DNA from: Balneola sp.
GTDB lineage: Bacteria > Bacteroidota > Rhodothermia > Balneolales > Balneolaceae
Reading direction: 5' to 3'
NCBI GenBank assembly: GCA_002720745.1
Contig: PBJO01000025.1
Coordinates: forward strand, 1-33,146
DNA: 33,146 nucleotides
Shown here piece after piece: positions 7,246 to 33,146 of this stretch (position 1 is the first letter of the stretch; each line of letters begins with the position of its first letter). The translations under genes and the position numbers were made by a program. The notes under the pieces are model-generated. The model was not told the DNA's origin. It did no database searches and saw nothing but the letters and a program-made list of their open reading frames with translations.

Positions 7246-10200
7246 GTGCCAAATTTTCAGTTCAGACGCATTTTTACCTGTTGGGCGATAATATCACTTA
7301 TTTTCGCTTTTCTAGGAGATTTATACCTTTTTGCACAGGAACGTGGAGGCGGACAAGGACAAAGTACTCAGCAACAGCAAGAAACCAAGCAATTTAGCCA
7401 GAACCCCCTTAGTGTTGAAATTATACCAGATAGTTTACTTGAAGGAGTCAAATTGTACCGGTACAAGCCAAAATTTAGTGCGGCTAAACTATATGCTCCC
7501 AAAGTAGGAGCACTATACTCAAGTCCATCAACAATTTGGGACATTGTGATCCATTGGGATAGTGTTTCTACTTATACCATAGATAACTATTGGTATAACA
7601 TTGATTTAGCTCCGAAAACGATTGTAAATTTTGAGGATTTTTTATCGCTGAAAATGGAGCAAAATGAGTTATCGATTCGCCGTCAACTTATTCGCGAGGC
7701 TAAAGCACAACGAGAGGAGAGACGAGGTTTATTAGATTTCCGGATTTCGGTTCCTGGGGGCGAAAATTCTGCTTTCACAACTATTTTTGGCACCGATGAG
7801 GTGAGTCTTCGTGTAAACGGTTCGGCGAATATGAATGTGGGAGCTTCTATTCAAAAACTTGATGATGGAACCTTGCCTGAAGATCTTCGTACCCGAGTCG
7901 ATCCTACGTTTAACCAAAATCTCCAACTTAATATCCAAGGGAATATTGGAGATAAACTTACTATTGCAACTGATTGGGACACTGAGCGTCAATTTGATTT
8001 TCAAAATAGACTGAGTATCGTTTATGAAGGGTATGAAGATGAAATTATCAAAAGTGTTGAGATGGGGAACGTATCCATGGAAACTGGAAACTCCTTGGTT
8101 TCAGGTGGAAAATCGCTTTTTGGAATTAAGGCTATTTCAGAGCTCGGCCCATTAAAATTGACCTCGGTGGTATCGCAACAAAAAGGAACTAGTAATTCCC
8201 AAAAAATATCTGGGGGTTCTCAGGAACAAGCTATTGATGTTACTCCAGCAGATTATGAAGATGGGCGGCACTTTTTTTTAGATTTTTATAACCGGCAGCA
8301 ATTTGAGCAAGCACTTAGTGATCCACAAAACATACTTCAACCTTATCAAATTTCGGAATTGTATGTATACGTCCGAAGGTCTGAGCAAATACCAGGTGAA
8401 TCTGCTGTACAGGCTATTGCATTACTTGATTTAGGAGTAAACCGATTTAATGATCAGTTATACGGACTGCCAGGTAACGATCGGGATCGATACGAAGAGT
8501 CAACCTTAAATGAATTGAGAGCGACCAATTCCAATGCTACTAACGAAGATTTCGGGGCAACGGCGCAGGAATATGTGGACGCCCCATTTGAACTGCTTCT
8601 GGAGGGGATTGACTACACATTTAATCGAGCGCTGGGCTTCATTAGTATGAAGAGTTATATAAATACTGGAGATGCGATTGCTGTAGCCTATGTGTATAAC
8701 GATCCCGAGCAGGGAGGAGTACCGGTTGCCGTTGGAGAGTTGAATGCATCTGGCAATGACCGAATTTATCTGAAGTTACTCCGACCAGGTGGGATGACTA
8801 CTTCGGATAAAGCGTGGGATTTGACCATGCGTAATATTTATTCATTAGGTGTTTCTGGGATTAACCCAGAAGGATTTGAGCTTGAAATTGCAGATACAAG
8901 AGGTAATATACCCGAAGTGAATCTTCCAGGTCGTTCTGCCACACTATTACAAGACTTGGGGCTTGATAGAGTAAACTCTGAAGGTGCGACTATTCCAGAT
9001 AATCAGATAGATTTTACTGGAATTACTCTTGATGCAGGGACAGGTCGCATTATGTTCCCGTACCTAGAGCCATTTGGGAAGCGAATAGATGAAATATTAG
9101 GAAACTCAGTAAGTGACTCAGTACGCCAATCCCTAACATTTAGAGAACTGTATGAGTTAAAGCAAAGTGATGCAAGGGATATCTCTAAGAACCGAAACTA
9201 TACCATATCTGGTAATTCTAAAGGAGGTGTTTCAGGCTCTTTTTATCTTGGGTTTGGTCTTATAGAGGGATCGGTTAAAGTATTTGCTAACAATGTGGAA
9301 TTGGTAGAGGGTAGTGACTTCGAAGTCGATTATTCATTTGGATCACTTACCATTATGAATGAAAGTTACTTAGCCCCTGGGCAGGAAATAGAAGTTGAAT
9401 ATGAGAGTAACCAGTTTTCCATAATAGGGCAAAAAAACTTTACAGGACTACGTGCGGAGTACCGTGTTAATGATGATATCCAACTTGGCAGTACATTTTT
9501 CAAATTGAAGGAACAGCCTTTATCTGACAAAATCCGAATTGGAAATGAACCCATCAATAACACGGTTTTAGGCTTAGATGCGCGAGCCAATTTTGAAGCG
9601 CCTTGGCTTACACAAGCCATCGATAAAGTACCATTATTACAGACCAAAACCCCTTCAAATATTCAATTCAGTGGTGAATTCGCTCAATTACGCCCAGGAG
9701 TGGCTCAGACTAATGCAGTTCAGGAAGCCATTGATAATAATGAACTATACAGAGACGAAGAAAATGGACTGGTATTTATTGACGACTTTGAAGGTGCTGA
9801 ATACACTATTAGTCTTACCAATCCAACCCGTTGGAATCTAGCTTCTGCGCCAGCCGCATTACCTGGCTATGGCCCAGACCAGACTTATTTTGCCAATCCA
9901 GATTTCACCACTCCTCAGAGTAGTTTTGATCGAAAAGCACGGGCCGATTTGCGATCTCAATTTTCATGGTATTCCATTCCTCGAAACATCAGTTCAATTC
10001 GCAATGCTATTGTTACCCCTGAATCTGAAATTATTTTATTAAAGGATGTGTTTCAAGGCAGAGAAACCAACAATCGTCAAGAAGATGTAATTTCTTCACT
10101 TGATATGCATTTCAACCCAGCAAAGAGAGGGCCGTATAATTATAATATGGATCTCAAAAATGTTTTAGACAATACTCCAGAGAATACTTGGGGTGGGATG

Positions 10201-13200
10201 ACTTATGTGATACCTTCAGGCCAAGAAGATTTGGTTCAGAATAATATCGAGTTTTTAGAATTTTGGGTGCAAGCTATACTGCCAGGTGGTCAAGATCCAA
10301 CTGGAGAAGAGCCTTTTTATGATGGAAAAATCTATTTGGATCTAGGTATTATTTCTGAGGATGTTATTCCTAATGTTCGTCTTAATACCGAAGACGGATT
10401 GTCCACTGTTTTAAATAATTTGCAAGAAGATGATGCTGAGTCACAACCACGTTCCTACATCCCACCATCCCCACCGGTTCCATTAGGTCAATTTTCAAAC
10501 GACAAAAGGATTCTAGAGGATGTGGGCTTGGACGGAGCTCCCAATCCAGGAACTCAAGGAGCTGAAGATAGAGATGAAGGGGCCCTTTTTGGGGACTTTA
10601 TTGAGGCTATGCGAGCGCAGTATGGGGAAGGAACTGAAGAGTTCTCCATGATTGAAGAAGACCCTTCCAACGATGATTATGTTTATTATGGTGAAAATAA
10701 GGTATTAGATTATAAATTACATGAACGGTTTTTCCGGATGTTAGGTCATCATGATGGGAATACCCCTGAAAGTGGTGGTAGCGATAACAAAACAGCAGTA
10801 ACTTTAAAACCTGATACCGAAGGTTTAGTAAGTGCTTCATCTATTCAGCAAACTAATTCGTACTACCAGTATGAAATAGACTTTAATCCTGCCGATGCAT
10901 CACAATTAAATATTGGTTCACCTGGGACCTACATAGTAGATAAAATACCGCGTAATCCAGAGTATAAAACCTGGTATTTAGTTCGAGTTCCCCTGAATGA
11001 CTTTAAACGAAAATTTGGGGATATAGAAAGCTTTCAGAATATATCATACATACGAATGTGGATGTCGGGATATCAAAAACCATTTACAATGCGCTTCGCA
11101 ACATTGGAGTTTGTGGGTTCTCAATGGAGAAAGGTAGGTAACTTAAGTGATAGCCCAGTAAATCCTAGCAATTTTAAGTTGTCTACAATTAATATTGAAG
11201 AAAATGCCAATCGAGAGCCGTTCCCATATCGACAACCCGATGGTGCTATTAGAGCATTAAATAGAAGTGCACAAATTCAGGCGCTGGAAAATGAGCAGTC
11301 ATTGGTTTTAAGTGTGGAGAACTTAGAAGCAGGAATGGTCCAAATGGTTAAGCGAGTGTACCCAGGTAAACTAAACCTGCTGAATTACTCTAACATGCGG
11401 ATGTTCCTTCATGGTGAAGGCTTTGATGAGAGAGGAGATGCGGAGTTAGTAGTGCGACTGGGTACGGATTTGGAGAACAATTATTATGAATACCGCCAAC
11501 CGGTTACCCCGTCGCAGGCCATGCCATTTAACTATGACCCATCCGATGCAGGGCAACTAGAAGTCGAAGCTGCAGAAATTTGGCGTTATGACGAGAACAA
11601 TATGAATATCATCATTTCGGCATTCAATGTATTAAAACAGCTTCGCGACGATGCTGGTGCCGATCCAACCGAAGTTTTCGAGCAGAAAGGAATTTTAGAC
11701 TCAGAAAAAGAAGTGAATGGAGCAGTGTTCGCGATTAAGGGAAATCCATCTCTAGACCGAGTTACTGAAATAGGTTTAGGGATACGAAATCCCTATAATC
11801 CACAGAATGTAAACTCAAGTGGTTCTCCATTACTCAATGCAGAAATGTGGTTAAATGAGTTACGTCTATCAGGGTTTGATAACGAAAAAGGTTGGGCAGC
11901 AAATGCGAAATCCACAATTAAATTTGCTGACTTTGCTACAGTTAACGCTAATCTTACCCGACGAACCAATGGCTTTGGTGGGCTTGAATCGCGATTGGGA
12001 GATCGAAGTGTATCTGATCAAATTGCATATGGGATTAGTTCAACCATTAATCTTCATAAACTTATTCCTGACAGGTTTGGGTGGAGCCTTCCCGTAAATA
12101 TATCTAATAGGGTAAACAATCAAATACCGAAATATTTACCATCTCAGGGGGATATTCGGTTGACCGATTTTATTGATAAAGTGAATGCCGACGATTCGGT
12201 GCCATCCAATTTGAAAGACGATGTAATTAATACAAAAAAAAATGATATTGAAACGGTAAATGAAACATTTTCTTTCAATGTCTCAAATATATCTAAGCGT
12301 AATTCTAAGCGTAAATGGGCACAGTTAACCTTGGATAATACTAAATTGAGTTATGTTTACAATAAAGGGTATTCCAAAAATCCACAATTAGTTTTTCAGA
12401 ATAAGTGGGACTATAAAGCCTCGATTCAGTATAATTTATCGCTTCGGCGCATTAAACTACTTCAGCTATTCAAATTCACCGAGGGTATTCCTGTTCTAGG
12501 AGCCTTATCTGAACTTCGCCTTGGTTATTTACCATCTTCCATCACAGCTTCGTCTACATTAACACGGCGTTATGATGAATCAAGACGTCGAAATTTGACT
12601 GACCCGGAAGATTTACAGGCACTACAACAATCTCACGCATTCACCCAGCAAAATCGGTTTTCTTTTAGTTACAATTTTATGCCATCGATTCCAATTACTT
12701 TTACGAGTTCATCTAATTTTGATTTTTCGAGTTTGGGTATTGACCCAAGTAATAGGGACGATGTTGATAGTCTTTCTTATAGCATTAAACCTAGCTTTGA
12801 TGTTATAAAAGGGGCTCTTCGAGATAGCTTAATACCTCGGCGATCATCCTATCAAGAAAGTTATTCTGCAAGTTGGAGACCCAAACTTAACGCAATTGAT
12901 GCATTGAACTGGCTAACATATTCAGCATCTTATGGAGGAGGTTATCAGTGGACCAATAGTCCAAGCGGTTCAGATTTGGGAGCTAACGTTTCTAATTCCT
13001 TTCAGCTAGATAATACCTTTAAGGTGAGTACGAGTCGTCTCTTGGACAAGTTTGGTTGGTATGAAATGGTAGAAGAGGCCAACAAAAATGAAATCAAAAT
13101 ACGAAAAGATGCCAAAGAAAATCTTAGAGAAGAAATAGAGAGCGGCTTAGCTGATAGTTTAAGAACTCCTAAACCACCTCCAGACTTTATTAAAGATATG

Positions 13201-14574
13201 CAGTTTTTCTCTCGAAAAGTATTACTAACCCTACTAAGTTTAGAGGATGTATCTATTGGATATAAACGTCAAAAGAGCGGCTCACAACCTGGTTATTCAG
13301 GCTCTTCAGAGTTTTTTAAATCCTTTAATGATGCATCCATAGATGATTTTTCACCCTCTTTTGCTTACAGACTTGGATTAAAAGATAGAATACCAAAGCA
13401 ACAATTAATTGGAAATGAAGGGGGAGATAATAATATTCAGCTCCCAGCAAATAACACTCAAGGGGATAATTTTTCTGCGAGTACCCGAATTAGTCCCTTT
13501 GAAAATATAACAGTTAACTTGGACTGGGACGCTACAATATCCCAGAAAAGTACAGAAACAATTACCCTAACACCTATTAATGAAATTACATCGATTGGAA
13601 CAGAATCAGGCTCTTTTAGTTCATCGGTGTGGGCCTTTGGTGGTGGGTATAAGGATTTATTTGAAAGCCAGCTAGAGACCGCGGTCTTGGATATTAGACC
13701 AGGCGAACGCTCCATTATAGATTCACTGGGTAACAGCGATGGCAGAGGGGTGTTGAATCGTACTACCCTTCAAGAAGATTATATGAATGCTTATTTAGGG
13801 GCTGGGACAAAAGGATTTGGAGATAAAGGTTTTATGGCTTTCCCTAAGCCAGGTTGGAGAGTCACATGGAACCGTTTAGAAAAATATATACCCTTTATAG
13901 GAAAGTATATGACCAATGCTGCATTGAATCATGCATATCGTGGGTCTTACAAAGTAGATTGGAGTTTAAATGCTTTGGTGGGGGAGCAATCTGGACAAAA
14001 CATTGGAGACTATTCAATTATTGATGTACGTGGTCGATATGAGCCTACATCAATTCGTTCAGAACGGCGATTCTCACCATTTGTAAAACTTAATATGACT
14101 TGGGAATCGGGTCTAAAGACCGATATTGGATATGACCGAAGTACTATTTCTACTTTTGCGGTAAGCTCAAAACGGGTAACAGAGACTTTGACGCAAGGAG
14201 TAGATGCTGCAGTTAATTATATATTCCGAAATGTGCGTATTTCTTTTTTACCTAAGCTCCGAAATAATATCGATATGAGTCTTCGTGGTAGCTATAAAAA
14301 TGATACTGAAATATCCTATAAACTCGATACAGATTTAGATAATGCATTGCAAAATGGTGTAACCGTGGATCAAATTGGCTCTGCAGAAACACTTAGTGCA
14401 CGAGAAACGGGGCAGCGACGAATTAATGGTAGTTTTACGCTCGGCTATAAGATATCTTCTACCGTTTCGTCTAATTTTGAGTATACCTATTCTAGGATCG
14501 AATCCAACAATATCCCCACTCGCACCAACCACGATATTCGGTTTAATTTTAGAATAGCTATTCGTTCACGTTAG
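7246..14574 (+). CDS. sprA: SprA, type IX secretion outer-membrane translocon
   Basis: A 2442-aa SprA/Sov homologue, the giant outer-membrane barrel through which type IX cargo crosses. A signal peptide is visible (RRIFTCWAIISLIFAFLGDLYLFAQ, cleavage near 31). The N-terminal hallmark segment IRRQLIREAKAQREERRGLL (144-163) is followed by LDFRISVPGG and the glycine-rich SprA_N region (ATDWDTERQFDFQNRLSIVYEG, about 241-262; METGNSLVSGGKSLFGIK about 278-295), with repeated elements of the same kind later. The rest is barrel- and loop-rich. The C-terminus ends NHDIRFNFRIAIRSR. The length fits the family (about 2300-2500 aa). The start is GTG at 7246, directly after an in-frame TAG; no nearby alternative exists. 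It is monocistronic, divergent from lptF and convergent with lnt. Its presence means the organism probably has a type IX system. Confidence 0.97.
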   Translation: MPNFQFRRIFTCWAIISLIFAFLGDLYLFAQERGGGQGQSTQQQQETKQFSQNPLSVEIIPDSLLEGVKLYRYKPKFSAAKLYAPKVGALYSSPSTIWDIVIHWDSVSTYTIDNYWYNIDLAPKTIVNFEDFLSLKMEQNELSIRRQLIREAKAQREERRGLLDFRISVPGGENSAFTTIFGTDEVSLRVNGSANMNVGASIQKLDDGTLPEDLRTRVDPTFNQNLQLNIQGNIGDKLTIATDWDTERQFDFQNRLSIVYEGYEDEIIKSVEMGNVSMETGNSLVSGGKSLFGIKAISELGPLKLTSVVSQQKGTSNSQKISGGSQEQAIDVTPADYEDGRHFFLDFYNRQQFEQALSDPQNILQPYQISELYVYVRRSEQIPGESAVQAIALLDLGVNRFNDQLYGLPGNDRDRYEESTLNELRATNSNATNEDFGATAQEYVDAPFELLLEGIDYTFNRALGFISMKSYINTGDAIAVAYVYNDPEQGGVPVAVGELNASGNDRIYLKLLRPGGMTTSDKAWDLTMRNIYSLGVSGINPEGFELEIADTRGNIPEVNLPGRSATLLQDLGLDRVNSEGATIPDNQIDFTGITLDAGTGRIMFPYLEPFGKRIDEILGNSVSDSVRQSLTFRELYELKQSDARDISKNRNYTISGNSKGGVSGSFYLGFGLIEGSVKVFANNVELVEGSDFEVDYSFGSLTIMNESYLAPGQEIEVEYESNQFSIIGQKNFTGLRAEYRVNDDIQLGSTFFKLKEQPLSDKIRIGNEPINNTVLGLDARANFEAPWLTQAIDKVPLLQTKTPSNIQFSGEFAQLRPGVAQTNAVQEAIDNNELYRDEENGLVFIDDFEGAEYTISLTNPTRWNLASAPAALPGYGPDQTYFANPDFTTPQSSFDRKARADLRSQFSWYSIPRNISSIRNAIVTPESEIILLKDVFQGRETNNRQEDVISSLDMHFNPAKRGPYNYNMDLKNVLDNTPENTWGGMTYVIPSGQEDLVQNNIEFLEFWVQAILPGGQDPTGEEPFYDGKIYLDLGIISEDVIPNVRLNTEDGLSTVLNNLQEDDAESQPRSYIPPSPPVPLGQFSNDKRILEDVGLDGAPNPGTQGAEDRDEGALFGDFIEAMRAQYGEGTEEFSMIEEDPSNDDYVYYGENKVLDYKLHERFFRMLGHHDGNTPESGGSDNKTAVTLKPDTEGLVSASSIQQTNSYYQYEIDFNPADASQLNIGSPGTYIVDKIPRNPEYKTWYLVRVPLNDFKRKFGDIESFQNISYIRMWMSGYQKPFTMRFATLEFVGSQWRKVGNLSDSPVNPSNFKLSTINIEENANREPFPYRQPDGAIRALNRSAQIQALENEQSLVLSVENLEAGMVQMVKRVYPGKLNLLNYSNMRMFLHGEGFDERGDAELVVRLGTDLENNYYEYRQPVTPSQAMPFNYDPSDAGQLEVEAAEIWRYDENNMNIIISAFNVLKQLRDDAGADPTEVFEQKGILDSEKEVNGAVFAIKGNPSLDRVTEIGLGIRNPYNPQNVNSSGSPLLNAEMWLNELRLSGFDNEKGWAANAKSTIKFADFATVNANLTRRTNGFGGLESRLGDRSVSDQIAYGISSTINLHKLIPDRFGWSLPVNISNRVNNQIPKYLPSQGDIRLTDFIDKVNADDSVPSNLKDDVINTKKNDIETVNETFSFNVSNISKRNSKRKWAQLTLDNTKLSYVYNKGYSKNPQLVFQNKWDYKASIQYNLSLRRIKLLQLFKFTEGIPVLGALSELRLGYLPSSITASSTLTRRYDESRRRNLTDPEDLQALQQSHAFTQQNRFSFSYNFMPSIPITFTSSSNFDFSSLGIDPSNRDDVDSLSYSIKPSFDVIKGALRDSLIPRRSSYQESYSASWRPKLNAIDALNWLTYSASYGGGYQWTNSPSGSDLGANVSNSFQLDNTFKVSTSRLLDKFGWYEMVEEANKNEIKIRKDAKENLREEIESGLADSLRTPKPPPDFIKDMQFFSRKVLLTLLSLEDVSIGYKRQKSGSQPGYSGSSEFFKSFNDASIDDFSPSFAYRLGLKDRIPKQQLIGNEGGDNNIQLPANNTQGDNFSASTRISPFENITVNLDWDATISQKSTETITLTPINEITSIGTESGSFSSSVWAFGGGYKDLFESQLETAVLDIRPGERSIIDSLGNSDGRGVLNRTTLQEDYMNAYLGAGTKGFGDKGFMAFPKPGWRVTWNRLEKYIPFIGKYMTNAALNHAYRGSYKVDWSLNALVGEQSGQNIGDYSIIDVRGRYEPTSIRSERRFSPFVKLNMTWESGLKTDIGYDRSTISTFAVSSKRVTETLTQGVDAAVNYIFRNVRISFLPKLRNNIDMSLRGSYKNDTEISYKLDTDLDNALQNGVTVDQIGSAETLSARETGQRRINGSFTLGYKISSTVSSNFEYTYSRIESNNIPTRTNHDIRFNFRIAIRSR

Positions 14575-19934: not shown

Positions 19935-20561
19935 TTGGACCAATTTCAACCCAATACCCGTTTTTCAATATTTCCACCGGCAATTAAATATCTACTTATT
20001 GCCAATGCAATCGTATTTTTAGTTACCAAGAGTATATTCACTGGTGCCTGGACACCCTTAGGTGCCATTTTAGCTCAACATTTCGCGCTATTTTCGATAG
20101 GTAACGGCTTTATGCCGTGGCAGCTATTCAGTTACATGTTTTTACATGCTGATGTGGGGCATATATTCTTTAACCTGTTAGCTTTGTGGATTTTTGGTCA
20201 ATCTATAGAGCATCTATGGGGAACACGGCGATTTATTACTTATTATATGCTTACGGGTATGGGGGCTGCAATTATTCATATGCTAGTGAGTGGCTATTTC
20301 ACCTACACTATCGGAGCCTCCGGTGCCGTTTTCGGAATTTTATTAGCCTTCGGGATGATGTTTCCCAATCAGTATATCATCCTATTGTTTCCTCCCATAC
20401 CTATAAAGGCAAAGTATTTTGTTGGAATTTATGGAGGTATAGAACTGTTATCCGGTATAACAAGACCTGATAGTGGTGTCGCTCATTTCGCTCATTTAGG
20501 CGGTTTATTCGTTGGATTTATACTCATAAGATATTGGAAAATTAAGCGACCTGCACTGTAA
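19935..20561 (+). CDS. Rhomboid-family intramembrane serine protease (1)
   Basis: A 208-aa polytopic protein with about six membrane helices. Catalytic serine is S129 in TIGASGAVFG; the base is H187 in AHFAHLGGLFVG. The oxyanion/HxxxN-type region is FLHADVGHIFFN (69-80, N80). WQLFSYMF at 62-69 is the usual start of the segment before helix 2. It has the small cytosol-side N-terminus typical of bacterial rhomboids and no extra domain. The start codon is TTG at 19935, with an AAGGAATTT purine-rich stretch 8-12 nt upstream; the next in-frame methionine is at residue 59 and would cut into helix 1. It lies 12 bp after the flavoprotein and 31 bp before the second rhomboid. Confidence 0.92.
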   Translation: MDQFQPNTRFSIFPPAIKYLLIANAIVFLVTKSIFTGAWTPLGAILAQHFALFSIGNGFMPWQLFSYMFLHADVGHIFFNLLALWIFGQSIEHLWGTRRFITYYMLTGMGAAIIHMLVSGYFTYTIGASGAVFGILLAFGMMFPNQYIILLFPPIPIKAKYFVGIYGGIELLSGITRPDSGVAHFAHLGGLFVGFILIRYWKIKRPAL

Positions 20562-20592
20562 AATTAGTTTTTATAAATACTTCTTTCTAACA

Positions 20593-21573: not shown

Positions 21574-21574
21574 G

Positions 21575-22792: not shown

Positions 22793-22873
22793 AAATCTAA
22801 GCCTTAGTTTTAGTGGACGACTATTTTCTCAGGGGGAGTTGTATAAAATGTAAGCTTTTTCATTAGTATTTAT

Positions 22874-22892: not shown

Positions 22893-22990
22893 TGAAAAAA
22901 ACGGTTTTAAATATTTTAATAATTAAAATTTGGCTTGAATCATGTAAGCGCTTTCAGTATTTTACTAAAATAACCAAATAATATTAAAGT

Positions 22991-24670
22991 GTGAATTTTA
23001 GTCGTTTTTTATTCTCGGGGATTTTTAGCTGTTTTTTACTGAGCCAGTGTTCCTCATTTATAAACGAAGAATCAGAAATGGTTTTGGCTGAAATTGATGG
23101 TTATGCGGTGTCCGAAACTCACTTTCTTACTAGTTTTAAAGAACTATATTATAAGACTGGCCAATCGATTACCCCAAATCTATCAACTAGAAAAGCGGTA
23201 TTAGATTCAGAATTCAATACCTATGTATTGGCAGTGCACGCCATGGATATAGGTTTAGATAAACAAGAAGAATTAGCATTTTTAAAGCCAAGAATTAAGG
23301 CACGAGTTTTGACCGATGAATTCAAGCGTCAGCTATTGTTGAATGAGCTGGAGGTGAATGAATCTGATTTGCGTGAGTATTTTGTGCGATTTAATACCAA
23401 AGTAAGAGCGTCACATCTGTATACAGAAACCCTCAAAGAGAGTGAACTACTTTTAGCGCGACTAGAAAATGGGGAATCTTTTGAAGAACTTGCTGAAGAG
23501 GTGTTTGGGACACCTTATTTGCAGGAAAATGGGGGAGATGTTGGTTTTTTTAGCACCGATGACATGGATATTTCTTTTGAAGAAGCTGCATTTACAAACC
23601 CTCCGGGTAGCATTGTTGGACCAATACAAACAGCCCAAGGTTTTAGCATTATTAAGATAACTGACAGGGTACAAAATCCCATATTAACCGAGGCCAATTT
23701 CCAACGTCAGTTGCCAGAGTTAAGACAATATGCTCGTAAAAAATTGGAGGAATTGCATGAGCGAAAGCATTTAGAAGATTTTATGAAGTCTGTTTCGATA
23801 AATCAGGTATTCATGGCTGACCTTTTGAAAGAGATAAAAGGGCAGCAGGGTATAGAGCAAGGTATTGAGCTCATAACTCTGCAAGACTGGAAACGGAATA
23901 CGCCTATTTTACGACATCAATATGGTCTTTTGACATTAGAAGATTGGACGTCTGAGTGGCAAATAACTCCTGTGGAGTATCTTGAAGGTATTTCTTCAGA
24001 GGATCATTTGGAATCTGTTTTGAGTGGCATAGCGTACCGGTCCTACATGAATAAAAAATCACATGATGCGGGAATTCCATCCCAGCCAGGGGTTCAGGAA
24101 TCTATTCAACAAACCTATTTAAATGCATTAGCTCGTGAAGTTGAGAGTCAAATTGAAAAATCAATCGAGTTCAGTCCGGCTGAGTTATATACCACATTTG
24201 AAGCAAATCCTGATCGATATATTCAGCAAAAACAAGTACTTCTGCAACGTATTGTAGTTTCTTCGCTGGGAAAAGCTCAGCAAATATATACTTCACTCCA
24301 ACAAGGCAAAGGATTTACCGAGATGGTAAAGCAGTATACTGAATCTAACGAGGATTTAATGGTTGATGGGGTCATGAATTACCTGCAATGGGCTAGTCTA
24401 GGACATTTAGGACAGGAGTTGCAACGCCTGGTACCGGACTACATAACTCACCCCATAGCCTATCAGGCTAATGAGTACCACATATATAAGTGTTTAGATT
24501 TAGTCGAAGCTCGTCCACTACGATTCGAAGAGGCTAAAGAAAAGGTTGAAAAAATTCTATTACAAGAAAAATTTAGAGAAGCTAGGGCTGAGCTGATTGC
24601 GCAAGTAAAGAAAAAGCATCATGCTTTTATAGATTTGGAACTTCTTGAGAAAATTAGCATTGAAATCTAA
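22991..24670 (+). CDS. Parvulin-type peptidyl-prolyl isomerase, probable lipoprotein
   Basis: A 559-aa SurA/PpiD-like secreted protein. The N-terminus FLFSGIFSCFLLSQC-SSF has a lipoprotein-like signal with C20 as acceptor; glutamine at -1 is unusual, so lipidation is likely but not sure. A SurA_N-like helical region (about 30-132) is followed by a full parvulin domain (137-226: VRASHLYTETLKES, ENGGDVGFFSTDDM, FEEAAFTNPPGSIVGPIQTA-QGFSIIKITDR). A second, degenerate parvulin-like domain is visible at about 412-513 (QKQVLLQRIVVSSLGKAQQI ... HPIAYQANEYHIYKCLD). Expected role is folding of outer-membrane proteins. The start is GTG at 22991. The stop is 4 bp before the ATG of the TonB receptor, so the two are probably co-transcribed. 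Confidence 0.85.
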   Translation: MNFSRFLFSGIFSCFLLSQCSSFINEESEMVLAEIDGYAVSETHFLTSFKELYYKTGQSITPNLSTRKAVLDSEFNTYVLAVHAMDIGLDKQEELAFLKPRIKARVLTDEFKRQLLLNELEVNESDLREYFVRFNTKVRASHLYTETLKESELLLARLENGESFEELAEEVFGTPYLQENGGDVGFFSTDDMDISFEEAAFTNPPGSIVGPIQTAQGFSIIKITDRVQNPILTEANFQRQLPELRQYARKKLEELHERKHLEDFMKSVSINQVFMADLLKEIKGQQGIEQGIELITLQDWKRNTPILRHQYGLLTLEDWTSEWQITPVEYLEGISSEDHLESVLSGIAYRSYMNKKSHDAGIPSQPGVQESIQQTYLNALAREVESQIEKSIEFSPAELYTTFEANPDRYIQQKQVLLQRIVVSSLGKAQQIYTSLQQGKGFTEMVKQYTESNEDLMVDGVMNYLQWASLGHLGQELQRLVPDYITHPIAYQANEYHIYKCLDLVEARPLRFEEAKEKVEKILLQEKFREARAELIAQVKKKHHAFIDLELLEKISIEI

Positions 24671-24674
24671 TTAT

Positions 24675-27600
24675 ATGCGACAACTGTTAGCAAATTATAG
24701 AGCTAGGTATATCAGCATACAATTAGGGTGTCTTAGCCTTTTTATGGCTGTATTTTTTATGGGCATCGCTTTAGCTCAATCTGGTAAAATTACAGGGACG
24801 CTATTAGATGCAGAAACCAATGAACCTCTTATAGGGGCTACCGTTGGTATTCAAGGGACCACGAAAGGTGCGATAACCGATATAGATGGGAATTATCTCA
24901 TGCTTAATGTGGCTCCAGGAACATATGTACTTGAAGCCAGATATATTGGTTATGCCAAAGTGGTAGTTAAAGATGTGATAGTTCGCACAGATTTAACTAC
25001 GACTCAAAATTTTAAGCTCACTTTAGAGTCATTTGAAGGAGAAGAAGTGGTTGTAGTGGCCGAGCGACAGGCTGTTATTAAAGATATAACTAGTTCAGAA
25101 GCTAGAGTTAGCAGCGATGAAATTGCCAAATTACCTGTGCAAGAGATCACAGACGTAATACAACTACAAGCAGGTGTAAACGTTGGGAATGATGGTGGTA
25201 TACATATTCGTGGTGGACGTACTACTGAGGTTTCTTATGTAGTGGATGGGATTCGCGTAACAGACGACTATGACGGGAGTAATGGCTTACGCCTGGAAAA
25301 TGAGTCCATCCAAGAGCTTCAAGTTATATCTGGTTCGTTTAATGCTGAACATGGGCAAGCCTTATCTGGGGTGGTAAACGTTGTCACTAAATCTGGAAAT
25401 AATAATTTTGAAGCCTCCTTTAGAGGGTGGGGTGGTGGCTATTTAGCTACAAGTGAGCCTCAACTCTATGACGGAATAGGAACAGGACTATCAAGCTTTA
25501 ATCCTAGTAGGATGTACAACTACACCGCTTCTGTATCAGGTCCCATAATCCAAGATAAACTCACCTTTTTTGCTACTGCTCGAAAATTCCAAAACGAAGG
25601 TTGGTTAACTGGACGAAACTTTTACTCACCACATGGAAAATATGTTGATCGTATACCTCTTGGAAGTGATTTATCTTCTTATGAAACACTCTATGGGGAA
25701 CGTATCGATTTATCTCTGCCCTATTACACAGCAGATACAGTGATTGTACAAGGGCAAGAGTATTTAGAAATCCGGGACAATGGTACTCGAGATAGTAGTT
25801 TGGTGAATATGAACCGCTTTGAGACTCAAAGTTTCCAGGGGAATTTGGAATTCAAGCCATTAAGTTGGTTAAAATTCAATCTTATTGGGACCTATGCTCA
25901 AGAAGAAGGCGGAGGCTTTAACTTTGGAAATCGATTTGTGCCAAATGGCATGAACAATACCTTTAGAAATAATTACTCGCTGAATTTCAAAACAACTATT
26001 AGTCCAAGCGCAAATACTTTTATTACTGTGAATATAGCCAACCGTTATAACGAGTATAATAGCTATTTGTATGAAGATCCTTGGGATCCTAGATATTTTA
26101 ACTATGAAAATTTATCGGATCCATTATTTGGCACTTCAAACCTGTTGTATGGTAATCAGATTACGAGTGCAGGCCAGTTTAATACTTACGGAACCAATAA
26201 TTCTCGATTCAATCGATTCACCGATTCTTACATAATCAAAAGCGAAATTTCCTCACAAATCAATCAACACCATTTTATAAAGGCAGGCGTAAACGTTCAG
26301 TTTGACGAAATTTTCTTTGAGAGTATAAGTTTATCACCTTTGAGTCAGCAGGGGGTTTCCATTCCAGAAGGAACTCCGCAAGATTTAATTGATAGAGGAT
26401 TGATAGAATTAGGGTATCCTGAAATAAATTCTCCTGGTTTTCAGCGTTATACAGAAAAACCACGCAATTTTAGTGGTTATATACAAGATAAAATCGAATA
26501 TGATAATCTTATTATCAATGTAGGGTTGCGATTTGACTATTTTGACCCTAATACCGACGTCCCCGCTGATCCAGAAGACCCAGACATTTATCTTCCTACA
26601 AAATCAGAAAATCTTTATACCGATACGAATGGGAATGGTCAACAAGACGAAGGAGAACGAAGTTTAACGGTAGTAGATCGTCAAGCGTATTGGTGGAAAG
26701 CTGCATCTGTTAAATATCAAATTAGTCCTAGAATTGGAGTGGCCTATCCTATTAATACTGGTGGGGTAATTTACTTTTCTTACGGTTATTTCTTTCAGAT
26801 GCCTTCTTATGACCGGTTGTATACCAACAGTCAAATTTTACTTTCTCAAACCGGTGGTGACCAAGGCTTATTTGGAAATCCTAATTTAGAAGCAGAAAAA
26901 TCCATTCAGTACGAATTAGGTTTAAAGCAAGAAATTTTTGATGGCACGGCCATTGAGCTTACTGGATACTACAAGGATACGCGTGATTATGTGTCTTCAA
27001 GGCCTCAAATTACGGGTGCCCCTTCTATTACATATGGAATTTATTACAACAGAGATTTCTCTAAGTCATTGGGGACTACCTTTGCCTTTAATCAGTTTGT
27101 TAATCAACGATTTAATTTTGGACTCGATTATACCTTTAGTATAGTGGAGGGGAGTAATAGTGATCCTGCTTCTGAATACTTTGCCATACTCGCTCAGGGT
27201 AGTCAAATAGATTCGACCAATCAATCCAACACGCTGACAAAAATTGTCCAACCTTTAAACTGGGACCGTACTCATATCATCAATGGGTCAATGTTTTTTA
27301 CGGGTGATACTTGGGGAACCAATATACTTACCCGCTTCGCCTCAGGCACACCTTATACCCCGGATCGCAATATCCCCGGCGTTTTAGTGGGTGAGGTTGC
27401 ATCAACAAGAGATTTACGCAACACAGCCCAATTACCCAATCGTTTTACCATAGATATCAACACTTATAAGAATTTTGAACTTCAGGGAAAAGCACAACTT
27501 CAAGTCTTCCTTAATGTGTATAACTTGCTCGACACTAAGATAGTAAATAATGTGTATTCCGATTCAGGATTACCTAAACGCCCACTACCCGCTAGAGTTA

Positions 27601-27689
27601 TTCCAGATGCACATATTGATTTTTATAATAATCCAACATTTTATGCAGAACCTCGGAGGGTACAATTCGGAGTTCAATTTTCATTTTAA
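24675..27689 (+). CDS. TonB-dependent receptor with carboxypeptidase-regulatory-like N-terminus
   Basis: A 1004-aa outer-membrane receptor using proton-motive force via TonB-ExbBD. A signal peptide (IQLGCLSLFMAVFFMGIALAQ, cleavage near 35) is followed by a carboxypeptidase-D-regulatory-like beta-sandwich (37-120: GKITGTLLDAETNEPLIGAT, APGTYVLEARYIGY). A TonB-box-like EEVVVVAER (123-131) and plug domain (about 135-250: LQAGVNVGNDGGIHIRGGRT, VVDGIRV, VISGSFNAEHGQALSGVVNV) come next. The 22-strand barrel ends in ...RVQFGVQFSF with terminal Phe. A DTNGNGQQDEGE loop (650-661) looks like an EF-hand-type calcium loop. No SusD gene follows; instead a large secreted protein does. I prefer the ATG at 24675 over an upstream in-frame TTG because the signal peptide then has a normal length. 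Ligand unknown. Confidence 0.92.
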   Translation: MRQLLANYRARYISIQLGCLSLFMAVFFMGIALAQSGKITGTLLDAETNEPLIGATVGIQGTTKGAITDIDGNYLMLNVAPGTYVLEARYIGYAKVVVKDVIVRTDLTTTQNFKLTLESFEGEEVVVVAERQAVIKDITSSEARVSSDEIAKLPVQEITDVIQLQAGVNVGNDGGIHIRGGRTTEVSYVVDGIRVTDDYDGSNGLRLENESIQELQVISGSFNAEHGQALSGVVNVVTKSGNNNFEASFRGWGGGYLATSEPQLYDGIGTGLSSFNPSRMYNYTASVSGPIIQDKLTFFATARKFQNEGWLTGRNFYSPHGKYVDRIPLGSDLSSYETLYGERIDLSLPYYTADTVIVQGQEYLEIRDNGTRDSSLVNMNRFETQSFQGNLEFKPLSWLKFNLIGTYAQEEGGGFNFGNRFVPNGMNNTFRNNYSLNFKTTISPSANTFITVNIANRYNEYNSYLYEDPWDPRYFNYENLSDPLFGTSNLLYGNQITSAGQFNTYGTNNSRFNRFTDSYIIKSEISSQINQHHFIKAGVNVQFDEIFFESISLSPLSQQGVSIPEGTPQDLIDRGLIELGYPEINSPGFQRYTEKPRNFSGYIQDKIEYDNLIINVGLRFDYFDPNTDVPADPEDPDIYLPTKSENLYTDTNGNGQQDEGERSLTVVDRQAYWWKAASVKYQISPRIGVAYPINTGGVIYFSYGYFFQMPSYDRLYTNSQILLSQTGGDQGLFGNPNLEAEKSIQYELGLKQEIFDGTAIELTGYYKDTRDYVSSRPQITGAPSITYGIYYNRDFSKSLGTTFAFNQFVNQRFNFGLDYTFSIVEGSNSDPASEYFAILAQGSQIDSTNQSNTLTKIVQPLNWDRTHIINGSMFFTGDTWGTNILTRFASGTPYTPDRNIPGVLVGEVASTRDLRNTAQLPNRFTIDINTYKNFELQGKAQLQVFLNVYNLLDTKIVNNVYSDSGLPKRPLPARVIPDAHIDFYNNPTFYAEPRRVQFGVQFSF

Positions 27690-27691
27690 GT

Positions 27692-30600
27692 ATGAGAATG
27701 TATCATATGTCATATAGATTTTATATCACACTACTCATTGTCTTGTTAGGAATTTCAAACCCTAAAGGATTCGCGCAAGTCTCTAATTATAAACCAAGTG
27801 AAGAACGATCGGATTTCAACAATCGTAAAATTTCTATAATGGATGGAAACAGGTTACGAGCTACCTATCACAATAATGGCCATGCAGGGCGTAGAAATTC
27901 TGGGGCACTAAACGAATTATTATTTGAATTCCCTAGAAATACGAATAGGGAGTACATGTATTTTATGAGTGTGATGTTTGGTACCGAAGTGCCGGATCAA
28001 AGTACCATTGAAGAGGATGTTTTTCCTCTGGTAAATACCGCGTCATATAAAACGTCTAGAGATGGGCGAAGTAATTGGTCTCTGAATCCAATAGATGGCT
28101 ATACTCGTGATAATTCCGATGAAATGGCTAGAAGCGATCGTGGACCGGAATCACCGCTAGGAAACACATGGCCGAATGCCTGGCCTGATAAATTTGAGGA
28201 TGGTGGAGATGGTTGGGCCGGTTCATGGAACGGCTATTTTGGACGCGATCAATTCAACGCCGACGTGGAATTTTATTATAAAGCGGGGGACGATACCTAC
28301 ACTCGCTTTACAGGTTCAAGATACCAGCCAGATAAGACGGATCCTACTCGAGGTGGTTTAGGCCTAATTTTAGAAACCCGAATTTTGGCTTGGTCGCAAA
28401 CATTAGTGAATGCTACGCACTTCAATTTATTTGAACTCAAGAATGATGCTAGTTATGATTATCCTAGAATGGCATTTGGGCTTTGGATTGCTGACTTCGT
28501 TGCAGGTGGTGGTCCAACCGATACGCCTCTGTTTGATAATATCCGTGCTATTGCCTATTTGACAGATACTGATCGATTAAGTGGAGGTAATGTATTTGAC
28601 GGGGGCTTAATTGGAGAGATGGGTTTAAAATTTATTGAAACTCCTGGGAATTCAATCGATGGAATTGATAACGACGGCGATAGTGATCACTACAATACAA
28701 GCAGCGACATTTATGATCCAGAAAATGTTGATTTATTTACTCGCCTAACTTCAGCAGGGGGAGGATTTTATGATAATATCTCTACGGTTCGGGATACCTT
28801 AATCCGAGTATTTAACCCTACTGATTTTGAGATGCGAGTGATAAACATAGGAGATCCGATTGTATTAATTCAAGAAAACCATAGTCGAGTGATTCATATC
28901 TATGATGGGAATTCATTTACATCTCAAGGTCGTAGTTATGATTATGGCGGTGCTCCTTTTACGGTTCAAGAAGATCTGCTTCCGGAAACGGATGAAGATT
29001 TTGGTATTCATATCGATGGTTTGGATAATGATTTTGACGGGTTAATTGATGAAAACCAACCTAATCATCTGACCAAGAGTACTTATATTCCTTCCTTGGA
29101 TCAATTTCAAACACGCCCAGTACGATTTATCAATTATCTAGAATTCGCCGCTGGTGACACGCTACAAAAAGGCTTAATTGTTTCCAATCAGACTATCCGA
29201 GCACGTATGGCTATTGATGCGGCTTTTGCCTCCCTGGTCAATGATGAATATACTGGTAGGCTTCAGAACTTTCATACAAGTGCGCCAATGATGGATGAAG
29301 GACGTGAAGACTACTTTGATAATGACGACGACTGGAATATTCTAATTGATGATGTAGGTATTCAAGGTAATCCGAATTCTGCAAGTTTGGGGCAGGGTGA
29401 TGGATTCCCAACATCCGGTGCTGGTACAGTATTTCCAGGAGAATCAGGTATTGATAAAACTGATGTTAGTGAAACAGACCTGATCGGAGTATCTAGAGTG
29501 AGAATTTTTGATGCAGGATCTATGCAAGTCACTCAAGATGCTGATATTTGGCTTCGTTACCTGATTCCCGGTGAGTTTATAGAAAAACAAGGAACCGATT
29601 CTGATATATTTGTTTCTTCTGGCCTATTTCCATTAGCAAGAGGGACTTCTGAGCGTTTTGCTGTTGCAATTACTGCTGCTCAGGAAAATCAGCAAAGTGC
29701 CTTATTTGATCGTCAAATGGTCAATGAACGACTTAGAGATGCCACAAAAGCTTACGAAGCGGATTATCAATTTGCTGTTGCGCCTGATCCCCCAATTATT
29801 ACTTCAGTACCTGGAAATGGTAAAGTAACTATATACTGGGATACTAACTCTGAGAATTCTTTTGACCGGTATATGAACCTTCAAACAGGCAATGGTTATG
29901 ATTTTGAAGGCTATAAAGTATATCGCACTACAGATGTATCTTTTGAAGAGATTAGAAGTATCACTGATGGTCGTGGAGGGAAAACCTTTTTGCAACCGGT
30001 AGCAATTTATGACCTCCAAAATGGAGTATTTGGCTTTCATCCAGTTTCAGAAAATGGGTTGCAGTTCAATCTGGGCAGCGACTCTGGCATACGTCGTATT
30101 TATGAAGATACTACTGTCGTTAATGGGCGTAAATATTTTTATGCGGTTACAGCCTTTGATCGTGGTTTAGAGCTAGCGGGGATTAGCCCTTCTGAATCTC
30201 CCGTTCAGATCTCTCTTAATCCTGACGGAAGTGTAGATTTTGGCCAAAATGTACTAGAAGTGCGAGCATCTAGAGAACAAGCTGGATACATTAGTCCCAC
30301 TAGTCCCAATGCGGCCATTTATCAGGGTGCACCCGGTGGGACTGTTGGGGTCGAAGTGATCGATCCTACAAAGTTGAAGGCAGATAACTTGTATGAGGTA
30401 GTCTTTGAAGATACTTTATTAAGTGGAGGCTCAAATCCAGATACTCTGAAGACAAAAAACTTCACCCTACAAAATATTACTAGCGGCACCCCAGATACTT
30501 TACTTTCCCGTTATACCAGCTTAAATGGAGGTAGTAATCCTGTAACCGAAGGCTTTACTGTGAGAGTCACTAATATCGAAACCTTCGGACTAAACGAATT

Positions 30601-31522
30601 ACGTTCAGGTTGGTTCGCCGCAGATCCTGAGGGCATGGACATCCATGGATTTTCATTTGTTAATCAAGCCGCGCCTAAAGTATCCGATTATGAATTAATT
30701 GTGGGTGATAATGTAGGATTTGGACAGTCAATTGAAAAGGAAATTGAGGTAGCAACGGGAATTTTTCAAATTTTACCATCCATTCCTACTAATTTTAAAG
30801 TCATTAATACCTACACTGGGGTAGAAACCAAATATGCCTTTGCTGATTTGAATGTGAACACTTCATTCCAACAAAGATGTAATCCAACCATCATAGTACC
30901 TGGTAATTATACTCCTCCAGAACCAGGTAATCTTTCAGCAGTCGCAGGCTTTAGTGGGCGTTGCTCTGATGTGCTATTTTTGATTGAAGACTTTAGAGGA
31001 GTAGAGGATACGCTTACCTATAAAATCGAAATGGCTCCATTATTAATTAACGGTAATCTCGAAACTAGAAATCCAGCAGCTGGAGATACTCTCAAAATCT
31101 TTACAACCAAGCCATTTTCTTCCAATGATATTTTCCGTTTTCGGTTTGATAGTGAAAACGTACCGCGAATTGACGCTGATTCGGCATCATCCGCCCTTGA
31201 TGATATATTGGTTATACCTAACCCATATAAGGTGGCCAATATCTATGAGCCTAGTGTAACCAATACCAATTTTCAACATAACCGAGAGCTCCATTTTACA
31301 GGAATGCCGGCTCCATCCACTCTGAGAATATTTACTGTCTCTGGGGTTCTGTTGCGTGAAATATCTATTACAGAATCGGACTTAACAAGCGCATACGGTG
31401 GATCCTACGTTTGGAATATGCTTACGAAAGATAATTTAGAAATATCATTTGGCATTTATCTCTATCATGTGGAAGCACCGGGCGTTGGCGAAAAGGTGGG
31501 TAAATTTGCTGTTATTAAATAA
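27692..31522 (+). CDS. Large secreted protein with probable type IX C-terminal sorting domain
   Basis: A 1276-aa exported protein I cannot place in a family. A signal peptide (FYITLLIVLLGISNPKGFAQ, cleavage near 29) precedes about 660 residues of unrecognised beta-rich sequence. This holds three aspartate-rich loops of the DND-D type: SIDGIDNDGDSDHYN (321-335), IDGLDNDFDGLIDEN (441-455) and DYFDNDDDWNILIDD (540-554), which look like calcium sites. A fibronectin-III-like region lies at about 700-845 (PPIITSVPGNGKVTIYWD, DFEGYKVYRT, YFYAVTAFD). The last 105 residues (LDDILVIPNPYKV ... GIYLYHVEAP...GKFAVIK) resemble a type-A T9SS sorting domain. Only two cysteines exist, C1063 and C1091, likely a disulfide. 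It starts 2 bp after the receptor gene and is followed at 7 bp by a PorV-family gene. Likely a surface-exposed partner of the receptor (inference). Confidence 0.82.
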   Translation: MRMYHMSYRFYITLLIVLLGISNPKGFAQVSNYKPSEERSDFNNRKISIMDGNRLRATYHNNGHAGRRNSGALNELLFEFPRNTNREYMYFMSVMFGTEVPDQSTIEEDVFPLVNTASYKTSRDGRSNWSLNPIDGYTRDNSDEMARSDRGPESPLGNTWPNAWPDKFEDGGDGWAGSWNGYFGRDQFNADVEFYYKAGDDTYTRFTGSRYQPDKTDPTRGGLGLILETRILAWSQTLVNATHFNLFELKNDASYDYPRMAFGLWIADFVAGGGPTDTPLFDNIRAIAYLTDTDRLSGGNVFDGGLIGEMGLKFIETPGNSIDGIDNDGDSDHYNTSSDIYDPENVDLFTRLTSAGGGFYDNISTVRDTLIRVFNPTDFEMRVINIGDPIVLIQENHSRVIHIYDGNSFTSQGRSYDYGGAPFTVQEDLLPETDEDFGIHIDGLDNDFDGLIDENQPNHLTKSTYIPSLDQFQTRPVRFINYLEFAAGDTLQKGLIVSNQTIRARMAIDAAFASLVNDEYTGRLQNFHTSAPMMDEGREDYFDNDDDWNILIDDVGIQGNPNSASLGQGDGFPTSGAGTVFPGESGIDKTDVSETDLIGVSRVRIFDAGSMQVTQDADIWLRYLIPGEFIEKQGTDSDIFVSSGLFPLARGTSERFAVAITAAQENQQSALFDRQMVNERLRDATKAYEADYQFAVAPDPPIITSVPGNGKVTIYWDTNSENSFDRYMNLQTGNGYDFEGYKVYRTTDVSFEEIRSITDGRGGKTFLQPVAIYDLQNGVFGFHPVSENGLQFNLGSDSGIRRIYEDTTVVNGRKYFYAVTAFDRGLELAGISPSESPVQISLNPDGSVDFGQNVLEVRASREQAGYISPTSPNAAIYQGAPGGTVGVEVIDPTKLKADNLYEVVFEDTLLSGGSNPDTLKTKNFTLQNITSGTPDTLLSRYTSLNGGSNPVTEGFTVRVTNIETFGLNELRSGWFAADPEGMDIHGFSFVNQAAPKVSDYELIVGDNVGFGQSIEKEIEVATGIFQILPSIPTNFKVINTYTGVETKYAFADLNVNTSFQQRCNPTIIVPGNYTPPEPGNLSAVAGFSGRCSDVLFLIEDFRGVEDTLTYKIEMAPLLINGNLETRNPAAGDTLKIFTTKPFSSNDIFRFRFDSENVPRIDADSASSALDDILVIPNPYKVANIYEPSVTNTNFQHNRELHFTGMPAPSTLRIFTVSGVLLREISITESDLTSAYGGSYVWNMLTKDNLEISFGIYLYHVEAPGVGEKVGKFAVIK

Positions 31523-31529
31523 GGCATTT

Positions 31530-32552
31530 ATGAAAAACGAACGAATGAAAATACGCCTATTTTGGATACTTATTTTTATAGCTCTTCCTATGGCTGCGTA
31601 TCCGCAACTATCTAAGGTGGGTACCTCTGCTGCGGAGTTTTTGCGAATACCTGTAGGTGCACGATCCTCTTCAATGGCAGCATATACAGCTAACATAAAC
31701 GATGGTTCGTCTATGGTACTAAACCCGGCAGGTTTAGCGACTTTAGATAATAGTGAAGTGCTTGTAGAGATAACGCCATGGTATATGGATATGACTCATA
31801 GTTTTTTTGGGGCAGCTATGCCTACAGAAAAAGGTGTTTTTGGAATTCATGTGCTTTCATTGAATTATGGTGAATTCGAAGAAACCACTGCTGAGGCGCA
31901 AGGACTAACTGGTCGTACATTTAGTGCCTATTCCGTATCCTTCGGCTTGACTTATGCCCGACAGTTACTTCCACAATTTAGTATTGGGGGTACCGTCAAA
32001 GTAGTACATGAGCAAATAGCAAAGAGTTCAGCATCGGCCTTAGCTTTCGATATTGGGACAGTCTACCACACTCCTTTCGATGATATTCTATTTGGAGTCA
32101 GTGTGACTAATTTTGGATCCAAGTTACAAATGAATGGAAATGATCTAATTATTAGTTCAGACCCGGATGAATCGCAATCTGGGAATTACGAGCCAGATGC
32201 GTTACTTGCTACCCAGGCTTTTGATTTACCCTTAATGCTTAAGGTAGGGCTGGCATGGGAAGCATTTGAGCGAGAAAATGCTCGTTTGACGCTTTCAGTG
32301 GATGGAAACAACCCTACTAATAACACCCAAAGTATAAGCATTGGTGGCGAATTAGCTTTGGCCAACCAACAAGTTATGTTGCGAGCAGGCTTGCCTTATA
32401 TAGGGCAAGAAGATAAAATTGAGACATTTACGTCTGGGATAGGAGTTCGATATCGTACATCCAGTGGTTTAGGACTTGGATTTAATTACAGTTATCACGG
32501 ATATGAGTATCTTGGAGATGTAAATAAACTTAGCATTCAGATTTTATTTTGA
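31530..32552 (+). CDS. PorV/PorQ-family outer-membrane protein
   Basis: A 340-aa predicted FadL-like barrel. The signal peptide is IRLFWILIFIALPMAAYPQ (cleavage near 26). The family hallmark follows at once: SAAEFLRIPVGARSSSMAAY (33-52), then INDGSSMVLNPAGLATLDN (56-74). The rest alternates beta-strands, ending KLSIQILF with terminal Phe. PorV of the type IX system binds the sorting domain of cargo after SprA and delivers it to the attachment complex; PorQ is a related component. Paralogues next to TonB receptors are frequent in this phylum (from memory). An open frame continues upstream to 31449 inside the previous gene, but the ATG at 31530 (7 bp after that stop) gives a normal signal peptide, so I use it. 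Gene order suggests it serves the upstream 1276-aa protein. Confidence 0.87.
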   Translation: MKNERMKIRLFWILIFIALPMAAYPQLSKVGTSAAEFLRIPVGARSSSMAAYTANINDGSSMVLNPAGLATLDNSEVLVEITPWYMDMTHSFFGAAMPTEKGVFGIHVLSLNYGEFEETTAEAQGLTGRTFSAYSVSFGLTYARQLLPQFSIGGTVKVVHEQIAKSSASALAFDIGTVYHTPFDDILFGVSVTNFGSKLQMNGNDLIISSDPDESQSGNYEPDALLATQAFDLPLMLKVGLAWEAFERENARLTLSVDGNNPTNNTQSISIGGELALANQQVMLRAGLPYIGQEDKIETFTSGIGVRYRTSSGLGLGFNYSYHGYEYLGDVNKLSIQILF

Positions 32553-32556
32553 TAAC

Positions 32557-32570
32557 AGTTTAATTAAACT
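32557..32570. repeat. 14-bp perfect palindrome before the lamin-tail gene
   Basis: AGTTTAATTAAACT is its own reverse complement. It lies in the 24-bp gap between the PorV-family stop (32552) and the next start (32577). It has no loop, so it is not a normal terminator; a protein-binding site is possible, or chance in AT-rich DNA. Confidence 0.4.
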
Positions 32571-32576
32571 AGAAAC

Positions 32577-33146
32577 ATGAATAATACACTAATAATAAAT
32601 CATAATAATATGAACATAATAAATACAATCCTTAAGCAAGGTTTGGTAGCGCTTTTAGCCATTTTTGTATGTATTGGCACCGTTCATGCTCAGGAGATGA
32701 TGACTCAATCGCACGGGGTTTTTTTTTCTGAGTATATAGAAGGGGGGGGCAACAATAAAGCCTTTGAAATATTCAATTCAACAAAAGATGATATTGACTT
32801 AGGTAATTACATAGTACTTGGTAATTATAATGGGAATCCATTTAACGATACTCTAAGATTTACACCTGGTACAATATTAGCGTCTATGGATGTTTATGTA
32901 GTCGCTCACGCTGACGCTGATCCTGCAATTACTGATGTTGCCGATTCATTAATCGAGAATCCATTTAATGACGGAACTTCTTACATAGCAGTATTTAATG
33001 GCGATGATGCTAGGGCGTTAGTCTATATAGATGGGACTGATTCAACAATCGTTGACTATTTTGGTACAGCTGATAATGATCCTGGTAGTGGTTGGGATGT
33101 TGCGGGTGTTTCTGCGGCAACTAAAGATCATACTCTTGTTCGTAAA
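32577..33146 (+). CDS. Lamin-tail-domain secreted protein (5' part, runs off window)
   Basis: 190 codons are present and open to the window end; my own translation from the ATG at 32577. Residues 12-39 (MNIINTILKQGLVALLAIFV-CIGTVHAQ) form a signal peptide, so the ATG at 32610 is the likelier start and 32577 the longest. After it comes a lamin-tail-type domain: GVFFSEYIEGGGNNKAFEIF (about 47-66), then DIDLGNYIVLGNYNGN, VYVVAHADADPAI and GDDARALVYIDGTDSTIVDYFG. This fold is common in secreted nucleases and T9SS cargo of this phylum. The C-terminus, which might hold a nuclease or sorting domain, is not in view. Two homopolymers lie in this part: T9 at 32719-32727 and G8 at 32742-32749. The gene follows the PorV-family gene by 24 bp. 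Confidence 0.82.
   Translation, partial: MNNTLIINHNNMNIINTILKQGLVALLAIFVCIGTVHAQEMMTQSHGVFFSEYIEGGGNNKAFEIFNSTKDDIDLGNYIVLGNYNGNPFNDTLRFTPGTILASMDVYVVAHADADPAITDVADSLIENPFNDGTSYIAVFNGDDARALVYIDGTDSTIVDYFGTADNDPGSGWDVAGVSAATKDHTLVRK

Follow-up and report, generated by a model that had tools for sequence, protein, structure and literature searches.

In Balneola sp., the outer-membrane half of a starch operon probably consists of a TonB-dependent receptor and a glycan-binding protein that would be secreted by the type IX secretion system (T9SS) and retained by a PorV-family barrel of its own, in analogy to SusCD; we put the probability of this reading at about two-thirds. The window analyzed here is the whole 33,146-nucleotide stretch of contig PBJO01000025.1, in which the genes of the receptor, the secreted protein (hereafter the cargo), and the barrel lie side by side and form a trio. 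SusCD is the textbook system of complex-glycan uptake in Bacteroidota, in which a TonB receptor is coupled to a surface lipoprotein, and glycan loci are commonly recognized by the susCD gene pair; in the T9SS, PorV shuttles cargo via the sorting domain. An earlier note on this DNA had proposed a SusCD-like device in which SusD is replaced by a T9SS cargo with a dedicated PorV paralogue. This proposal was strongly supported by genomics, namely by the conserved neighborhood, the amylase operon with its LacI operator, co-divergence, block exchange, the private pairing of C-terminal sorting domains (CTDs) with barrels, and the cargo fold. Complex formation, anchoring, transport, the substrate, the role of the cargo as a lid, and that of a peptidyl-prolyl isomerase (PPIase) as an export or assembly chaperone are the parts of the reading that we infer.

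Gene content of the operon and its LacI-type sites

The ORF coordinates confirmed five plus-strand genes separated by gaps of 4, 2, 7, and 24 bp, as had been described earlier. In order, they encode a double-parvulin PPIase, a probable lipoprotein (22991..24670, GTG start); a TonB-dependent receptor with an N-terminal CarboxypepD_reg-like domain, distinct from SusC (24675..27689, ATG start); the cargo, a 1276-aa predicted secreted surface protein and candidate glycan-binding lid conserved in 80 loci (27692..31522); a PorV/PorQ-family outer-membrane barrel, predicted to be dedicated to the cargo (31530..32552, ATG start); and, truncated to its 5′ portion, a starch-binding surface protein with a lamin-tail domain (LTD), CBM20, and a T9SS tail (32577..33146). 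The assignment of the first gene product as a double-parvulin lipoprotein held for the two parvulin stretches (PF00639), whereas the lipobox of the window copy was atypical (LSQC), being clear in many relatives. The PPIase was present in 49 of 51 testable cargo loci. Its place in the operon is fitting because the translocon core of F. johnsoniae contains a PPIase together with SprA and PorV (PMC10994853).

The contig end at position 33146 interrupts the lamin-tail gene. An exact 99-bp overlap joined the window end to the end of contig C10 of the same genome, which continues with the LTD/CBM20 protein, a LacI regulator, a T9SS-tailed GH13 enzyme, two more GH13 enzymes (three amylases in all, one of them T9SS-tailed), and an MFS sugar carrier. 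The earlier description of a secreted lamin-tail protein was right as to the LTD (PF00932) but incomplete, since the C10 part of the gene matched CBM20, AMPK1_CBM, and PF18962, and the full-length form is thus a starch-binding protein with a T9SS tail. Likewise, the five genes do not form a self-contained module, as the operon extends into the LacI, GH13, and MFS genes. A T9SS-tailed CBM20 protein, LacI, and GH13 enzymes also followed the trio in genomes of the same genus. By this gene content (CBM20-T9SS protein, LacI, three GH13 enzymes, and MFS carrier), the operon is therefore a starch utilization locus, with alpha-glucan as the predicted substrate. An outer-membrane transporter, a candidate surface glycan binder, glycan enzymes, and a regulator lie in one operon, which corresponds to a polysaccharide utilization locus in the broad sense. 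The adhesion function offered earlier as an alternative is unlikely because glycan enzymes share the operon.

A LacI-type operator, TGTAAGCGCTTTCA (22943..22956, + strand), matched exactly and lies 34 bp before the PPIase start. A second, weaker copy, TGTAAGCTTTTTCA (22849..22862, + strand), had one mismatch to the pattern TGTAAGCNCTTWCA and has a counterpart in relatives. The palindromic LacI-type site TGTAAGCGCTTWCA precedes the first gene across those loci of the order that include the region, and TGTAAGCNCTTWCA had only two matches in the whole 2.17-Mb genome, one of them at the module. The case for the operator rests on this conservation and genome rarity, since a search of the window alone with two mismatches allowed was not striking. 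The other genomic match (C4:1441-1454) is located upstream of a T9SS-like ORF near exosortase-like genes and may be due to chance. The module is preceded by two tandem rhomboid-like genes and ispG (window positions 19935-22792, + strand), in the same order in nearly all genomes of the order.

Conservation and exchange of the receptor, cargo, and barrel genes

A scan with the cargo alone yielded 80 loci with cargo identities from 99 to 29%, belonging to Balneolota, Rhodothermota, Ignavibacteriota, Calditrichota, Neomarinimicrobiota, and KSB1. The TonB receptor gene was directly upstream of the cargo gene in 78 of 79 loci, and a PorV-family barrel gene was directly downstream in all 61 of 61. 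The search for the same gene order that the earlier note had suggested as a check thus revealed a neighborhood conserved in about six phyla. Within the phylum, the cargo profile matched 108 of 296 sampled complete genomes, representing 70 of 140 genera. Gracilimonas mengyeensis DSM 21985, which is available in culture, also has the locus, through to the amylases.

Elsewhere in genomes of the order, further paralogous trios occur. In the same genome as the window, such trios were found beside GH81 (contig C14) and beside GHL10 (contig C10); another paralogous trio adjoined GHL10/GH38 and a sodium symporter (SSF), and an Ignavibacteria-type locus carried GH53, GH5, GH2, and GalT, a beta-galactan set. 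A GH13 homologue was detected at 34 of 44 testable loci; starch is not a universal substrate, because about 10 of the 44 were without it. Thus, the enzymes change around a constant trio, which is the behavior expected of an uptake core. The gene order is non-random, as it persists both where cargos are only 29% identical and in paralogous copies. At the GH81 locus (C14:95001-115000), where the enzyme is a beta-1,3-glucanase, the PPIase gene lies downstream of the trio, and the locus is probably devoted to laminarin. At a KSB1 trio (L152:12535-18651), a GDSL-TPR protein, an SSF symporter, and a solute-binding protein occur in place of glycan enzymes.

The distance matrices of receptor, cargo, and barrel, compared over 32 trios, were correlated (r = 0.90-0.96), and none of 2000 within-genome reassignments of partners reached the observed correlation for any pair, the signal reflecting mainly the agreement of paralogue classes. 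In addition, six genomes had an alternative trio at the same ispG-linked locus, sharing about 30-38% identity with the usual type, while the surrounding ispG (80-83%), LacI, and amylase genes stayed similar. Three genera showed this exchange of the block, with the usual type also occurring in each of them, and mixed trios were absent from the ispG-linked locus in this comparison. The PPIase accompanied the usual trio at this locus and was absent with the alternative one. At the level of sequence comparison, the trio of receptor, cargo, and barrel is the evolutionary unit.

Predicted folds, sorting domain, and cognate barrel

The receptor had been described as a TonB protein with a carboxypeptidase-regulatory-like domain, and Pfam indeed returned CarboxypepD_reg, the plug, and the TonB barrel. 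It scored 85.3 bits against the SusC model TIGR04056, far below the cut-off of 368.25. Its AlphaFold2 model (pLDDT 84) matched TonB-dependent transporters (best Z 38.6), the nearest being PirA, Cir, and BtuB (Z 36-39). The designation "SusC paralogue" was dropped, since SusC came no higher than rank 38 among the PDB matches listed by Foldseek. The model places the receptor nearer to siderophore- and B12-type receptors than to SusC, which counts against lid-type behavior being assumed. No SusD (PF07980) match was obtained in the cargo or its neighbors at the locus. The genome itself contains three SusD matches, on contigs C21, C9, and C18, and a general absence of SusD from these genomes was rejected, as 37 of 38 relatives encode SusD away from the locus. 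SusCD is thus not replaced as such.

The view of the cargo as unclassified held, in that no Pfam family was matched. At the N-terminus, where a Sec signal peptide would lie, inspection by eye showed a hydrophobic stretch ending in ...GFAQ. The AlphaFold2 model of residues 30-1165 (mean pLDDT 84) contains a predicted beta-supersandwich with DxDxDG-type acidic loops at approximately residues 35-689 (27794..29758, + strand), recognized with VIA-align, and a fibronectin-III-like (FnIII) domain at approximately residues 695-862 (29774..30277, + strand; VIA-align Z of about 11 to FnIII, model residues 666-833). The VIA-align matches comprised a GH15 dextran dextrinase (Z 18.7), GH94 (Z 18.5), and galactose mutarotase (Z 13.1); the top alignment of the supersandwich spanned about 260 residues, with 9% of them identical. 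It was VIA-align that revealed the supersandwich; Foldseek on its own gave no match of the cargo model under E 0.001, and the cargo sequence compared with solved structures yielded a weak FnIII match only. The model thus predicts a beta-supersandwich like those of carbohydrate enzymes, a fold that also occurs in domains that do not bind carbohydrate. The relation of the cargo fold to GH15, GH94, and aldose epimerase domains would suit a surface enzyme or adhesin whose released product is imported by the receptor with no stable complex being formed. This reading is improbable, since the mostly-beta model shows no clear sign of the (alpha/alpha)6 barrel that is the catalytic part of GH15/GH94, and the cargo is tightly paired with the receptor and barrel.

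The T9SS translocon gene sprA lies on the same contig (2442-aa ORF, 7246..14574, + strand; TIGR04189 1469 bits, cut-off 200), and SprA was found in all 38 relatives, in 37 of them above the cut-off. PorU, PorV, and PorQ are also present in the genome, with canonical PorV and PorQ elsewhere, on contigs C5 and C6. The type IX sorting domain attributed earlier to the cargo (31181..31519, + strand) fell below both TIGR04183 and PF18962, and profile comparison assigned it to a related but separate subclass of type-A-like CTD, here termed PNPY. Its profile nevertheless aligned with that of ordinary type A tails (hhalign 96.4%, P 1.3e-9), and its sole, weak NCBIfam match was PorZ (E 0.055). Conservation of the CTD is unusually high and extends to its final residue. 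Alongside 35 ordinary T9SS tails above the PF18962 cut-off, the genome has four strong PNPY-type CTDs (108-154 bits; the next scored 34.5). Each of these CTDs clusters with one of the four PorV-family genes above the NF033709 cut-off that are neither PorV nor PorQ, on contigs C25, C14, C10, and C20/C22, the last pairing spanning a contig break joined by gene order in a relative. On C10 (position 273311), a further PorV-family gene, divergent and scoring slightly less than the NF033709 cut-off, occurs in a cluster without a TonB receptor.

The family assignment of the window barrel was borne out by NF033709 (171 bits, cut-off 90). The barrel scored below both equivalog models, PorV (50.7, cut-off 250) and PorQ (89.3, cut-off 220), and did not match TIGR03519 of the PorP/SprF family up to E 0.1. 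Long branches were present in the comparison of trio barrels with PorV and PorQ that addressed whether the former are a separate clade. In genome G030, two cargos with bodies about 33% identical are each followed by a barrel gene for the same 357-aa protein, and the 1317-bp repeat (96%) is confined to the final 75 cargo codons and the complete barrel gene. This clustering of private CTDs with barrels, together with the G030 repeat, suggests tail-barrel recognition. The tandem cargo-barrel duplication (L059:2701-11706), with its identical barrel proteins and a repeat that reaches only the final 75 cargo codons, has the appearance of gene conversion or of a duplicated CTD-barrel cassette.

Could the barrel be a FadL/TodX-like transporter of a hydrophobic or small substrate, with the cargo unrelated to it and merely in the same operon? 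PorV belongs to the FadL superfamily, and the barrel gave weak TodX and Toluene_X (Pfam) matches. However, its nearest solved structure was PorV (6h3i, E 1.5e-29, versus 4e-4 for TodX), the G030 repeat joins exactly the CTD and the barrel, the barrel is included in the co-divergence and block exchange, and it followed the cargo in 61 of 61 loci, beside enzymes for very different sugars. We consider such a transporter very improbable.

A pure shuttle is another alternative. The barrel would only deliver the cargo to the PorU sortase, by which the CTD would be removed, and the cargo would be left on LPS as a starch-binding coat independent of the receptor. PorU is present in the genome, and type A CTDs normally take this route of CTD removal and LPS attachment (PMC10202324, PMC12618676). 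However, the ordinary T9SS proteins of the operon carry the usual PF18962 tail and have no barrel of their own, the conservation of the cargo CTD to its last residue fits a retained domain, and the receptor co-diverges with the cargo; the shuttle is therefore rated unlikely. By analogy with known pairs, anchoring by the barrel appears likelier than pure shuttling.

Proposed mechanism and relation to known systems

In the SusCD-analogous reading, SprA would export the cargo, the CBM20 protein, and the amylase, as may be expected because T9SS tails and machinery are present; the later steps we infer. The downstream PorV-family barrel would recognize the cargo CTD, take the cargo from SprA, and most likely stay bound as its membrane anchor beside the receptor, as in PorQ/PorZ and SprF/SprB; cargo and barrel together would then associate with the receptor. 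The CBM20 protein and the T9SS-tailed GH13 enzyme would bind and cut starch outside the cell, the cargo would capture glucan chains freed by the surface amylase, and the receptor would import malto-oligosaccharides. Further GH13 lipoproteins and the MFS carrier would complete uptake, the LacI regulator would sense the sugar and control the operon, and the PPIase may act as an export or assembly chaperone.

The module resembles Sus/SusCD loci in its CarboxypepD_reg TonB receptor, dedicated surface partner, surface starch-binding protein, GH13 enzymes, and local regulator, and in the reuse of one module with other enzyme sets. Unlike them, it is without SusD, and its receptor falls well short of the SusC cut-off, resembling BtuB/Cir more closely in structure; the partner in Sus/SusCD is a helical lipoprotein, whereas here it is a predicted T9SS beta-supersandwich protein with a PorV-family barrel and PPIase. 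BtuB-BtuG and XusA-XusB, both among the receptor fold matches, likewise combine a TonB receptor of similar structure with a non-SusD surface partner; however, their lids are lipoproteins for B12 or siderophores, with neither T9SS nor a second barrel.

On the secretion side, the type B pairs SprB-SprF and PG1035-PorP also combine a secreted protein that has its own type of CTD with a cognate barrel gene directly downstream (PMC12618676, PMC9143113). Cognate PorP/SprF barrels are required for the secretion of proteins with type B tails (PMC12618676) and have been proposed as their anchors (PMC9143113). In contrast, the CTD of the module is type-A-like, its barrel is of the PorV/PorQ family, and the pair occurs with glycan enzymes and a TonB receptor rather than with gliding/PorE. 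In PorZ-PorQ and PorU-PorV, a type-A-like CTD is thought to be kept on a PorV-family barrel, the PorZ tail on PorQ (PMC10202324); the module differs in having many paralogous pairs per genome and in being tied to nutrient uptake. Type A tails are all recognized by PorV, as stated in PMC12618676. A tentative extension, to which we give somewhat less than even odds, is that the PNPY CTD and its private barrel form a third T9SS sorting route besides type A/PorV and type B/PorP. The cargo would then be installed uncleaved as the lid of the neighboring TonB receptor, giving a two-barrel glycan importer with a secreted lid in place of SusCD in several FCB phyla.

A search of the open literature gave no description of the receptor/cargo/barrel trio, which is weak evidence, as most subscription journals and preprints are outside its coverage. 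The trio locus thus seems to be an undescribed kind of polysaccharide utilization locus that would work like Sus and yet has no SusD and falls below the SusC model. Trio loci that have no SusD would be missed by susCD-based prediction. The trio would link two fields that are usually separate, T9SS secretion and TonB-dependent import. In addition, the specificity between CTD and barrel becomes testable with natural matched pairs, block swaps, and the duplication of the CTD together with the barrel.
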